From Candidatus Lindowiibacteriota bacterium (GTDB taxonomy: Bacteria; Lindowbacteria; 2-12-FULL-62-27), in contig JAHFCY010000055.1 of NCBI GenBank assembly GCA_023249255.1, positions 1-15,027 on the forward strand: a DNA stretch of 15,027 nt, given 5' to 3'. The translations under genes and the position numbers were made by a program. The notes below the pieces were generated by a model. That model was not told the origin of the DNA and made no database searches. It saw only the letters and a list, made by a program, of their open reading frames with translations. Shown here in pieces: positions 4,662 through 8,385 of this stretch. How positions within the stretch are numbered: position 1 is the stretch's first letter; each line of letters starts with the position of its first letter.

Positions 4662-5375
4662 TCAATCTACGTCCCCCATGAGGCTCTCGATTTTGGCCTG
4701 CAGTTCCATCGAGACCCGGCGGGCGGAGCGGTTGGCGTCGACGATGTTGAATCCGTAGACGCCGTGCATGCGCATGAATTCGGCCTGCATGAGTTTCTGA
4801 TAGCGGATGAAACTGTCGAACATGTCGCGGGACAGGCCGACGTCCATGCCTGATTCCCAGAAATTGAGCGTCGCGTTTTTCATGAAATTCCGTTCGACAA
4901 GCTGTTTCGGATTGATTTTGAGATAAAAGACGGCGTCGGGGACGAGGGCCATGCCGTAGAGCGATTCGACCCAAGAGCGGTCGGCGCCCCGGACAATGTC
5001 CCGCGCCATGAGCGTATAAATGTACCGGTCGGCCAACACCACAAATCCGGCCTTGAGGGCGGGAATGATGATGTTTTCGAGTTGGTCGGCGAAATCGGTG
5101 GCGTAGAACAGCGAAAACGTGACGGGGTTCAGCACGTTCCCCTGGAGGATCTCGCCGAGTTTTTTGCTGACGAGGTTGGACCGCCGAAGGCCGACGTCGA
5201 CGATCGCGTGGCCTTTGGACTCAAGCCAGGCCTTGAGAAATTCGACCTGCGTGGACCGCCCCGCGCCGTCAGGGCCTTCGATGACGATCAGCATTCCCTG
5301 AAGGGTCTTGAGGCCGACGCCGGGAAGACCGCGGCCATAGAATCGTTTGGGCGGGAGAGCGGATTTTCGGGCCAT
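4662..5375 (-). CDS. Thymidylate-kinase-like protein with Arg in place of the P-loop Lys (second of a tandem pair)
   Basis: The 237-residue product belongs to the thymidylate kinase fold, whose members transfer phosphate from ATP to a nucleoside monophosphate. It has a P-loop GPDGAGRST at about residues 34-42, so the usual Lys is Arg40. It keeps the DRY motif (Asp116-Tyr118) in LADRYIYT and an ARDIVRG segment. The REPGGT segment of ordinary thymidylate kinases is absent. About 27 residues precede the first strand. It resembles its upstream neighbour throughout (TFSL, TDFAD, DRYIYT, ARDIVRG), so the pair probably arose by duplication. I chose the ATG at 5375, which shares a base with the upstream stop (TGATG). 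An ATG at 5393 would add six residues. Its true substrate is unknown, and it could be a low-activity or regulatory partner of its neighbour. Confidence 0.8.
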   Translation of the reverse strand: MARKSALPPKRFYGRGLPGVGLKTLQGMLIVIEGPDGAGRSTQVEFLKAWLESKGHAIVDVGLRRSNLVSKKLGEILQGNVLNPVTFSLFYATDFADQLENIIIPALKAGFVVLADRYIYTLMARDIVRGADRSWVESLYGMALVPDAVFYLKINPKQLVERNFMKNATLNFWESGMDVGLSRDMFDSFIRYQKLMQAEFMRMHGVYGFNIVDANRSARRVSMELQAKIESLMGDVD

Positions 5376-6112
5376 CAGCGTTTGATTTTCCATTTGAACG
5401 CCGGCAGGTCGATTTTTTCGGCCACGATCCGGCGGACGTCTTTTTGCTGGCGTTCGATCGAGCGCGACGCGTCGATCACGGTGAAATTATGGGGTTTGAT
5501 CATGGACAGGTATTGATTGAGAATCCGGCCCTGAAAAATTTTGAAACTCTCGTAGATGTCGGACGACAGGTTGAGGTCCATGCCGGCCTCATGATATTTG
5601 AGCGCGGGCCGGCCGTCGAGGATTCGCGAGAGGGCGAGCTGGAGCGGCGTTTTGAAAAAAAACGTGATGTCAGGCTGGGCGGCGAAACTGTAGAGTTTGT
5701 GGACCCAGTCGGGGCTGCATCCGCGAACGATGTCGCGCGCGAACGCGGTGTAGATATAGCGGTCGCAGAGGACGATGTATCCGGCGCGCAAGAGCGGCAG
5801 GATCTGCCGTTCGTAGCGGTCGGCAAAATCGGTGCAGTGAATCAGGCTGAACGTCGACGGCGTGAGCAGTTTCAGTTTTTTTCCCTTGCTGGTGACGTCC
5901 TTGACCATGACGGACGAATTCCATTCAGTGAAAAAGACTTTGAGTTGTTGAATTTCGAGCCAGCGCTTCAGGAGATACAACTGGGTGGACTTGCCACTCC
6001 CGTCGAGGCCTTCGACCGCAATCAATTTTCCCTCGACCGGCCGGTCGCGCGCGGACAATTTCTGCGGCACAGGCGCGGCGGGAGAGTGAACCCTGGATTT
6101 GACTTTCGGCAT
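5375..6112 (-). CDS. Thymidylate-kinase-like nucleoside monophosphate kinase (first of a tandem pair)
   Basis: The 245-residue protein has a thymidylate kinase fold with an intact P-loop GLDGSGKST at residues 35-43 (Lys41), the DRY motif at 117-119 in LCDRYIYT, and a helix YESFKIFQGRILNQY like the one following the lid in thymidylate kinases. The REPGGT loop expected after the second strand is replaced by FTEWNSS, and the usual AYQG segment reads ARDIVRG. Substrate specificity may therefore differ from dTMP, and I give no gene symbol. A charged tail of about 28 residues precedes the fold. The ATG at 6112 has AGGAAG seven bases upstream, so it is preferred over the long in-frame extension into rarA. 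It is the first gene of the minus-strand kinase operon and overlaps the next one by one base. Confidence 0.85.
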   Translation of the reverse strand: MPKVKSRVHSPAAPVPQKLSARDRPVEGKLIAVEGLDGSGKSTQLYLLKRWLEIQQLKVFFTEWNSSVMVKDVTSKGKKLKLLTPSTFSLIHCTDFADRYERQILPLLRAGYIVLCDRYIYTAFARDIVRGCSPDWVHKLYSFAAQPDITFFFKTPLQLALSRILDGRPALKYHEAGMDLNLSSDIYESFKIFQGRILNQYLSMIKPHNFTVIDASRSIERQQKDVRRIVAEKIDLPAFKWKIKR

Positions 6113-6119
6113 GGCCAAT

Positions 6120-6125
6120 CTTCCT
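6120..6125 (-). promoter_or_regulatory. Ribosome binding site of the first thymidylate-kinase-like gene
   Basis: AGGAAG on the minus strand lies seven bases before the ATG at 6112. It fixes that start against the open frame that continues upstream to 6592 inside rarA. Confidence 0.7.
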
Positions 6126-6164
6126 ATCCACGAAGCAGAATTACCCCTACTCGCGAATACGTAT

Positions 6165-6195
6165 ACTATAGGGCCGGAAAAAAAGAAATGGTCAG
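6165..6195 (-). promoter_or_regulatory. Possible promoter of the kinase operon
   Basis: The 79-base gap between rarA and the first kinase gene holds an AT-rich patch containing TATAGT (6170-6165), five of six matches to a -10 box. A weak -35 candidate, CTGACC (6195-6190), lies 19 bases upstream. TATACG at 6165-6160 is an overlapping alternative -10. The assignment rests mainly on the -10 box and the position before a gene with a good ribosome binding site. Confidence 0.4.
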
Positions 6196-6207
6196 ACCGG
6201 CCGGTCT
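6178..6207 (-). terminator. Weak terminator candidate after rarA
   Basis: The 14-bp palindrome AGACCGGCCGGTCT (6207-6194) overlaps the rarA stop codon. Six bases later comes a T-rich run (6188-6178, one C) on the minus strand. The stem is only five pairs with a four-base loop and the spacer is long, so termination would be inefficient at best. Confidence 0.25.
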
Positions 6208-7427
6208 TTGGGGTTCGGGCGGTAGTAGGTCCGGGGCTCGGGGAGATATTTCTGTTTCCCGGCCTCTTCGGGGTGCGTGTGCGGGTAGATGTACCCTTCC
6301 GCCGTGTAGGGATCACCGCGAAGGTGCACGGGAACTTCGAGGACATCGCCTTTTTCGACGTCGGCAAGGGCGCGGTTGATGCCGTCGTAGGCGCTGTTGG
6401 ATTTGGGCGAGCGCGCGACGTAGAGGGCGGCCTCGGCCAGCGGAATGCAGCCTTCTGGCATGCCGACGTGGTCGACCGAATCGAACGCGGCCTGCGCGAC
6501 GACCAGCGCATGGGGGTTGGCGAGACCCACGTCTTCGGCGGCGCAGATGACGATGCGGCGCGCGATGAACCGGGGATCCTCGCCTGCGGCAATCATGCGG
6601 GCCAGCCAGTAGAGGACCGCATCGCCGGCGCCACCGCGCATGCTTTTGATGAACGCCGAGATCACGTCATAATGATCGTCGCCCTTGCGGTCGTACCGGA
6701 CCGCCATGGCCGGCAATCCATCGAGCATCTTGTCCGTGACCGTAATCGCGCGGTCGCCTTCGAGCGAAAGAAGTTCAAGCGCATTGAGAAGCCGGCGGGC
6801 GTCGCCGGCGGCGGACCGGACAAGCCGGGTGCGGACATCGGCGGACATCGACAGATCGACGCCGGATTCAGACCGAAGATGACGGATCGCCATGTCGAGA
6901 ATGGCCGAAAGATCCTCGGCCGCGAGCGGCTCAAACCGCAACAGGAGCGAACGCGAGACAATTCCTTTGGCGAGGACAAAGTTCGGATTTTCAGTCGTGG
7001 CCGACGCGAAATAAAATCCACCTTCTTCAAGAAACGGCAGGAGGACTTCCTGCTGATTTTTGGCCATCCGGTGAATCTCGTCGAGAAAGAGAAAGAGCGG
7101 GCGGGCGGATTCAAAAAGGGATGACGGAGCGCCGGACGAGAGAGGCGCGCGACGCTGAAGTACAGCGCGAAGATCGGCGACCGACGCGGACGTTCCCGAC
7201 AAAATGCTGATGTCGGCGTTCAGCCGTTCGGCCAAAAGATGCGCGAGAGCGGTCTTGCCGCAGCCGGGCGGGCCGTGGAAAACAAGAGGCGGGATTGCGC
7301 CCCGGTCGAGCGCGCGGCAGAGCGGCGTGTCCGGGCCGACGATGTGGCGTTGCCCGACAAAAAGATCAAGGGACGACGGCCGCAGACGGCGCGGAAGCGG
7401 GGGCGGGAGGGATTTTTCGGAGCTTAT
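6192..7427 (-). CDS. rarA: Replication-associated recombination protein A (RarA/MgsA), atypical start codon
   Basis: RarA (the WRNIP1 family) is an AAA+ ATPase acting at stalled replication forks. Visible in order are the N-terminal LRPSSLDLFVGQRHIVG, Walker A GPPGCGKT (about residues 52-59), Walker B FLDEIHRM, sensor 1 ATTENPNF, the GDARRLLNALE helix, and the C-terminal tetramerisation region with YDVISAFIKSMRG, EDVGLANP and YIYPHTHPE. From the proposed start the protein has 411 residues, close to the family's usual length. No ATG, GTG or TTG occurs in this frame between the in-frame stop at 7577-7575 and Walker A. The first TTG (7235) would remove Walker A. The best candidate is ATA at 7427, overlapping the upstream TAA in the manner of an ATGA junction. 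The start codon is therefore uncertain, but the identity is not. Confidence 0.9.
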   Translation of the reverse strand: MSSEKSLPPPLPRRLRPSSLDLFVGQRHIVGPDTPLCRALDRGAIPPLVFHGPPGCGKTALAHLLAERLNADISILSGTSASVADLRAVLQRRAPLSSGAPSSLFESARPLFLFLDEIHRMAKNQQEVLLPFLEEGGFYFASATTENPNFVLAKGIVSRSLLLRFEPLAAEDLSAILDMAIRHLRSESGVDLSMSADVRTRLVRSAAGDARRLLNALELLSLEGDRAITVTDKMLDGLPAMAVRYDRKGDDHYDVISAFIKSMRGGAGDAVLYWLARMIAAGEDPRFIARRIVICAAEDVGLANPHALVVAQAAFDSVDHVGMPEGCIPLAEAALYVARSPKSNSAYDGINRALADVEKGDVLEVPVHLRGDPYTAEGYIYPHTHPEEAGKQKYLPEPRTYYRPNPKDRPV

Positions 7428-8107
7428 CGTTCTTCGATGATCGACCGGATGGATTTTTCGACCGTGGACCTCGGCTGGAGGCCGAGCAGCCGGTCGAGAG
7501 CTTCGCCTTTCCTCAAAAACAGCATGGTCGGCACGTGGAACACGCGAAAGCGCGTCGCCAGATCGCGGGAATCGTCAAAATTTGCGATGCAAAACCGGAC
7601 CTTGTCCTTGTATTTTTCGGTCATCTCCTGAAATTCCGGAATGAGCATCCAGCTCGGCTCGTGATCGTGCTTCCAAAAATTGAGGATGGTGAGGATGGCC
7701 GAGTGTTCCACAGTTTCCTCAAAATTGGATTCGGTCACATGAAGGAGCCCCGCCGGCAGGCGGTCGAACCGGCTGCCTCCTATTTTTTCGACGAACGTTT
7801 CCATGTTGTCGGCATAGCCGATGCTGGTCATTCGGTCGAGGACCTCGCCGCGGTTGAAGATGAGCAGAGCGGGGACGGACCGCACGCCGTATTCCAGCGC
7901 GAGATCCTTGTTGCGATCGATGTCCAGCCTCAAGAATTTGATTTTAGCGGAATGTTTCTGCGCGAGTTTTCGAAATTCATCCTGCTTGATATTGCAAAGC
8001 CCGGAATCCTTCAAATAACAGAAAATAACCGCCGGCTTGGACGACTGCAACACCATATCGTCAAATGCATCTTTGGTCACGATGGGAAGTTCTTCGGATC
8101 CAGCCAA
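7424..8107 (-). CDS. Protein with two thioredoxin folds lacking CXXC motifs
   Basis: The 227 residues contain two thioredoxin-like domains, about 8-105 and 110-225. Each keeps the cis-Pro segment (VRSVPALLIF and FHVPTMLFL). In domain 1 the position of the CGPC redox motif reads SGLC (Ser35-Cys38). In domain 2 it reads HEPS, with no Cys. Disulfide exchange as in thioredoxin is thus unlikely, and a binding, chaperone or monothiol role is more plausible. No signal peptide is evident, so it is probably cytosolic. I chose the TTG at 8107 because GGAGG lies five bases upstream. A TTG at 8122 adds five residues but has no ribosome binding site. The gene follows the probable 6S RNA and its stop touches the proposed rarA start. 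I do not recognise a specific named family. Confidence 0.8.
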   Translation of the reverse strand: MAGSEELPIVTKDAFDDMVLQSSKPAVIFCYLKDSGLCNIKQDEFRKLAQKHSAKIKFLRLDIDRNKDLALEYGVRSVPALLIFNRGEVLDRMTSIGYADNMETFVEKIGGSRFDRLPAGLLHVTESNFEETVEHSAILTILNFWKHDHEPSWMLIPEFQEMTEKYKDKVRFCIANFDDSRDLATRFRVFHVPTMLFLRKGEALDRLLGLQPRSTVEKSIRSIIEER

Positions 8108-8112
8108 CCTGT

Positions 8113-8117
8113 CCTCC
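8113..8117 (-). promoter_or_regulatory. Ribosome binding site deciding the start of the thioredoxin-like gene
   Basis: GGAGG on the minus strand (8117-8113) lies five bases before the TTG at 8107. It would fall inside the coding region if translation began at the TTG at 8122, which argues for the shorter protein. Confidence 0.6.
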
Positions 8118-8132
8118 AGCAAAAGCTTCTAT

Positions 8133-8349
8133 GAAATAAAAATCCAGGGTGCCGTAGGATAGTCGAGTATTGAACCGCGATTTCCAAGTGGGCTTCCCGC
8201 GAACGGCCGCTGTGGCTTCCCTCACCCCCCGCATGTGTTGCCACATTCGGAAGGGGTCATGCCGGCGGTCGCCCGACGACGGATTCCCGTTCGGTGCTTG
8301 TTGGCTCAATGACTGCGAAAACCTGACGCACACCCCAGACGCATTTCTT
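8133..8349 (-). ncRNA. ssrS: Probable 6S RNA (SsrS)
   Basis: 6S RNA binds housekeeping RNA polymerase by imitating an open promoter. This 217-base minus-strand stretch folds as one long rod. Paired segments are 8339-8331 with 8151-8143 (9 pairs, two wobble), CGT/ACG (8328/8155), AGG/CCT (8324/8158), AGTC/GACT (8314/8164) and ATTGAGCC/GGTTCAAT (8310-8303 with 8176-8169). An asymmetric unpaired bubble follows, then CGAACGG/CCGTTCG (8293-8287 with 8206-8200) and an apical ATGTG-GCAA-CACAT hairpin (8246-8233). Closing stem, large central bubble and terminal arm are the 6S layout, and the strands TGAGCC and GGTTCAA match those flanking the E. coli bubble. A promoter lies just upstream and a T-rich run ends the stretch. 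From memory, B. subtilis 6S-1 also lies close to rarA, which supports the call. Exact ends are inferred. Confidence 0.78.
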
Positions 8350-8356
8350 GAGCACC

Positions 8357-8385
8357 TGTTTAGCCCAGCCACGCGCAGTCGTCAA
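8357..8385 (-). promoter_or_regulatory. Promoter of the probable 6S RNA
   Basis: TTGACG (8385-8380, five of six -35 matches) is followed after exactly 17 bases by TAAACA (8362-8357, a weak -10 that keeps the first TA). Initiation would fall near 8350, at the predicted 5' end of the folded RNA. It may also supply readthrough transcription of the thioredoxin-like gene and rarA. Confidence 0.6.

Follow-up and report, generated by a model that had tools for sequence, protein, structure and literature searches.

A very probable 6S RNA upstream of thioredoxin-like and rarA genes in an uncultured relative of Candidatus Lindowbacteria

The E. coli 6S RNA gene, ssrS, forms a two-gene transcript with ygfA. 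6S RNAs bind the RNA polymerase holoenzyme by mimicking a promoter, and the enzyme is released by a process driven by synthesis of a pRNA (PMC9130861, PMC12005410). Characterised pRNAs follow a rule in which GG occupies positions 4/5 or 5/6 and the start is preceded by an A (PMC8414754). In lactic acid bacteria the 6S gene is adjoined by rarA, situated upstream, and in B. subtilis rarA is also a neighbour but runs in the opposite direction (PMC8414754).

The sequence analysed here (the window) is a 15,027 nt stretch of DNA from an uncultured bacterium related to Candidatus Lindowbacteria. The original prediction placed a 6S RNA at 8133–8349, to be checked by a covariance-model search of the minus strand and by comparison with related genomes, and both checks bear it out. 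The Rfam 6S family (RF00013) matches the minus strand from 8344 to 8137 with 53.0 bits (E 2.4e-8), 6.6 bits over the curated cut-off of 46.4, which is a moderate excess. The alignment is full-length (model positions 1–187 of 187), with ends within five bases of those predicted. This is the single match to the 6S model in the whole genome, and of 4227 Rfam families scanned, 6S is the sole one to score above its cut-off for this RNA. From the sequence, 8137–8344 is very probably the 6S RNA (ssrS) of this bacterium; it is ordinary in kind, a member of a known family, and it is the host group that is new.

Three genomes of one family make up the phylum sample: the window genome (G000), G001 and G002. 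G001 is the closest named relative by a search with the thioredoxin-like protein (MFPR01000004.1, Candidatus Lindowbacteria RIFCSPLOWO2_12_FULL_62_27; 59% identity), a search that gave a single Lindowbacteria match and no other named relatives. It belongs to a related genus and carries the corresponding RNA at the corresponding locus (58.2 bits with the Rfam 6S model). The features of the window locus, all on the minus strand, are as follows.

8380–8385, minus: −35 hexamer TTGACG; read directly, identical in G001
8357–8362, minus: −10 hexamer TAAACA, 17 nt from the −35 hexamer; read directly, identical in G001
8137–8344, minus: very probable 6S RNA (ssrS); RF00013 match, conserved in G001; transcript probably about 8349 to 8133
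8326–8343, minus: closing stem, 5′ strand; pairs with 8155–8139, 15 of 17 Rfam pairs, covariation across phyla
8303–8310, minus: ATTGAGCC, helix at the bubble edge; pairs with 8176–8169, Rfam alignment and fold, invariant in G001
8289–8302, minus: central bubble, 5′ side; read directly
8281–8288, minus: GGGAATCC, arm above the bubble; pairs with 8197–8190, minimum-energy fold
8233–8246, minus: apical hairpin ATGTG-GCAA-CACAT; from the fold, in a variable region with a 23-nt insertion in G001
8190–8197, minus: GGAAGCCC, partner of GGGAATCC; minimum-energy fold and comparison with G001
8177–8189, minus: central bubble, 3′ side; Rfam alignment and fold
8169–8176, minus: GGTTCAAT, partner of ATTGAGCC; Rfam alignment and fold, invariant in G001
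8139–8155, minus: closing stem, 3′ strand, with a U-rich run at its end; RF00013 alignment, covariation across phyla
7424–8107, minus: protein with a double thioredoxin domain; Pfam PF00085 (3.2e-30), 59% identical in G001
6192–7427, minus: rarA/mgsA; Pfam PF12002 (3.5e-51), first codon uncertain

Folded alone, 8133–8349 gives a long rod of −93.4 kcal/mol at the place where a 6S-like rod had been proposed. Dinucleotide shuffles average −75.3 kcal/mol (z = −3.8), and 0 of 200 are as stable. The minimum-energy fold and the Rfam alignment concur on a closing stem, a large central bubble and an upper arm, and the resemblance of the bubble to a melted promoter is supported. The original prediction differed in the detail of this region, where it drew a perfect CGAACGG/CCGTTCG arm above an asymmetric bubble of 9 nt against 23 (8302–8294 and 8199–8177). 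Those two strands are complementary, as claimed, but energy and comparison support a different arm, GGGAATCC/GGAAGCCC, which is the Rfam-aligned arm and is present in the minimum-energy fold of the window. It has two mismatches in the window; its counterpart in G001 is a fully paired 8-bp helix and lies within 2 kcal/mol of the minimum. If the CGAACGG/CCGTTCG arm is imposed, the penalty is 7.2 kcal/mol for the window and 18 kcal/mol for G001, in which five of the seven pairs of this arm are left. Since the arm above is GGGAATCC/GGAAGCCC, the bubble consists of 8302–8289 and 8189–8177 (about 14 + 13 nt) and is close to symmetric. The GCAA-capped apical hairpin is found at 8246–8233, as foreseen.

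Sequence identity between the window and G001 is 86.7% over the RNA, compared with 66.7% in the thioredoxin-like gene, 73.2% in rarA and 67.6% in the DNA further upstream. Inside the RNA the two genomes are set apart by two insertions, one of 23 nt and one of 1 nt, so that no frame is conserved across it; a conserved ORF spanning the interval was considered and rejected, every frame being broken, in agreement with the earlier view that the interval holds no credible ORF. In G002, the remaining genome of the family, no 6S was found with the Rfam model at E values up to 10, by BLAST or by Rfam on two contig stretches, and no RarA domain was found either; as this genome is 81% complete, the absence may reflect loss or a gap in the assembly. 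A strong hairpin in G002 (L072, 1405–1534) has many sub-threshold matches to microRNA families on both strands, and is probably a near-perfect inverted repeat.

Compensatory changes in the helices, which the original prediction looked for in related genomes, are found in the closing stem across phyla; within Lindowbacteria the changes are one-sided only. The covariation count is confined to the closing stem because the whole-structure alignment (20 sequences, MAFFT) is too ragged in the apical arm. In 31 6S sequences from many families, a closing stem makes on average 12.7 of 17 pairs when both strands come from one sequence and 9.7 when they are exchanged between sequences. Pairs were counted by position from the ends, which puts sequences with inserts there out of register, and the own-strand figure is thus understated. 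The window stem makes 15 of 17 pairs; with one or the other strand replaced by its counterpart from the 30 other 6S RNAs, the mean is 10.1. Across the set, positions 6–181 and 10–177 each show four pair types, and single positions range over C-G, G-C, U-A and A-U. Between the window and G001, the closing stem shows pair-keeping changes on one side (G-U to G-C, U-G to C-G), and covariation inside the group is almost absent because the helices hardly vary within Lindowbacteria.

A promoter with 17 bp spacing had been proposed at the 5′ end of the RNA and is present there (TTGACG, 8385–8380; TAAACA, 8362–8357), both hexamers and the spacing being unchanged in G001. A generic sigma-70 scan did not flag it. 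Transcription is expected to start at around 8350–8348.

The placement of the RNA between divergent genes is confirmed, with the thioredoxin-like gene on the minus strand and the gene for an AddB-like nuclease on the plus strand, where there is also an AddA-like gene. The order on the minus strand is 6S, thioredoxin-like, rarA, two thymidylate kinase-like genes, PPK2, shikimate kinase-like, RidA-like and adenine deaminase, and G001 has the same 6S-trx-rarA-tmk-tmk-ppk2 order. The thioredoxin-like gene has a probable TTG start at 8107, preceded by GGAGG (8117–8113). The rarA frame has no ATG, GTG or TTG ahead of the conserved start region; an ATA at 7427–7425 overlaps the thioredoxin stop (ATAA) and is possibly a rare start codon. 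G001 likewise has an ATA there, with a GTG two codons further on. The two thymidylate kinase-like genes (4662–6592) are adjacent and diverged (about 39% identity in G001) and stand beside a two-domain PPK2, an order kept in G001. That genome also has a gene for a 446-aa protein between 6S and addB (L014, 1783–3123), ending just before the 6S promoter; by eye it is possibly of RNA-methyltransferase type, and the gene is absent from the window.

Transcription of the RNA would begin at the conserved promoter that precedes it. By analogy with the family, the RNA would, when growth slows, bind the holoenzyme of RNA polymerase with its housekeeping sigma factor, blocking many promoters. On outgrowth, the polymerase would copy the 5′ strand of the bubble into a short pRNA (5′-GUUGGCUCAAUG...), which would refold the 6S RNA and free the enzyme. 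The start of this pRNA is predicted opposite C8300. The product of the template would read GUUGG..., with GG at 4/5 and A8299 just before the start, in keeping with the rule for characterised pRNAs; in G001 it would read GUAGG..., again with an A before the start, and the predicted counterpart is GUAGGCUCAAUG. A role as a global regulator of RNA polymerase would follow from family membership. As the 3′ end of the 6S RNA (8137) is about 20 nt before the GGAGG of the thioredoxin-like gene, a shared 6S-trx-rarA transcript is likely, in which case 6S would probably form its 5′ end and be cut from it or partly terminated.

The link to rarA was surveyed in 192 genomes, mostly of different families, searched with the 6S model and the RarA domain. 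A 6S match was found in 104, and 92 have both 6S and rarA (a count from two lists). In at least 14 of the 92, belonging to 11 families, rarA follows 6S on the same strand at a distance of no more than about 1 kb (G000, G001, G017, G023, G039, G047, G089, G093, G112, G117, G144, G164, G170 and G175; loci L033, L037, L046–L054 and L057, and window 6192–8344). Chance adjacency would account for roughly 0.1 to 0.2 cases, by our own estimate (about 2.5 kb in 3 Mb). In most of the other genomes, 6S is away from rarA. The rarA coding region starts within about 10–30 nt of 6S in G017, G164 and G112, and the gap could hold a gene in G047 and G093. One contig (G089:C67) carries two 6S-like matches 15 kb apart (106325–106506, 52.9 bits; 121585–121744, 39.7 bits), the first of which alone is beside rarA, a possible 6S-1/6S-2 pair.

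The original prediction likened the proximity of rarA to that in B. subtilis 6S-1, which is documented (PMC8414754), and the neighbourhood is wider than lactic acid bacteria and B. subtilis. No report of the wider pattern was found in the open literature covered, which did not include the surveys Barrick 2005 (which may describe 6S neighbours) and Wehner 2014, and novelty is not claimed for it. A tentative idea, on balance doubtful, is that 6S and a co-oriented rarA downstream of it form an ancient transcription unit, recurring across deep bacterial lineages, that couples global promoter shutdown to replication-fork rescue, to which Lindowbacteria add a thioredoxin-like protein.

Three other explanations of the RNA were weighed. 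It might be another RNA that binds RNA polymerase, such as one resembling Ms1, whose target is the core enzyme and not the holoenzyme. In structure Ms1 is a relative of 6S (PMC9130861), and specificity for core or holoenzyme cannot be read from sequence; nevertheless Ms1 is reported from Actinobacteria (PMC9130861), 6S is the one Rfam family above cut-off, and the conserved bubble and pRNA-template letters are of the 6S type, making this very improbable. A structured leader regulating the trx-rarA operon behind it and nothing else, with no 6S function, would agree with the ribosome-binding site about 20 nt past the RNA and with the recurrence of the 6S-rarA order in other families. It is more improbable still, given that the 6S match is full-length, that the conserved parts are the bubble and its bordering helices rather than a switchable terminator, and that 6S is away from rarA in most other genomes.

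That the fold arose by chance, or that the RNA is the decayed remnant of a 6S, is scarcely credible: the moderate bit score and the two mismatches above the bubble could be read in this way, but they stand against the E value of 2.4e-8, the lack of any shuffle of equal stability and the stronger conservation of the RNA and its promoter compared with neighbouring DNA. The preferred reading, a 6S RNA, places this regulator in a little-studied candidate phylum, where the RNA as such is an expected find. The remaining interest of the locus is the 6S-rarA linkage: a gene neighbourhood already reported in Firmicutes is present in many other lineages as well, so that a functional or transcriptional link becomes testable.

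Compared with the RF00013 family (E. coli ssrS, B. subtilis 6S-1), the window RNA shares the match over the full model, the closing stem, the central bubble, the conserved GAGCC and CCCACyUGGA letters and a pRNA template with GG at 4/5. It differs in having two unpaired positions in the upper arm and in its length of 208 nt, a little above the 187 positions of the model, owing to an apical arm that is G+C-rich and variable. Like Ms1 RNA of Actinobacteria, it is rod-like and would bind RNA polymerase, but Ms1 is of another family and host range and the window RNA scores with 6S only. As in E. coli ssrS-ygfA, the 6S RNA is directly upstream of a co-oriented protein gene, although its partners are trx-rarA and not the folate enzyme gene ygfA. 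With the 6S of lactic acid bacteria and B. subtilis 6S-1 it shares a nearby rarA (PMC8414754); in the window and 10 other sampled families, unlike in those organisms, 6S comes first and rarA after it on the same strand, and in the Lindowbacteria group a thioredoxin-like gene stands between the two.
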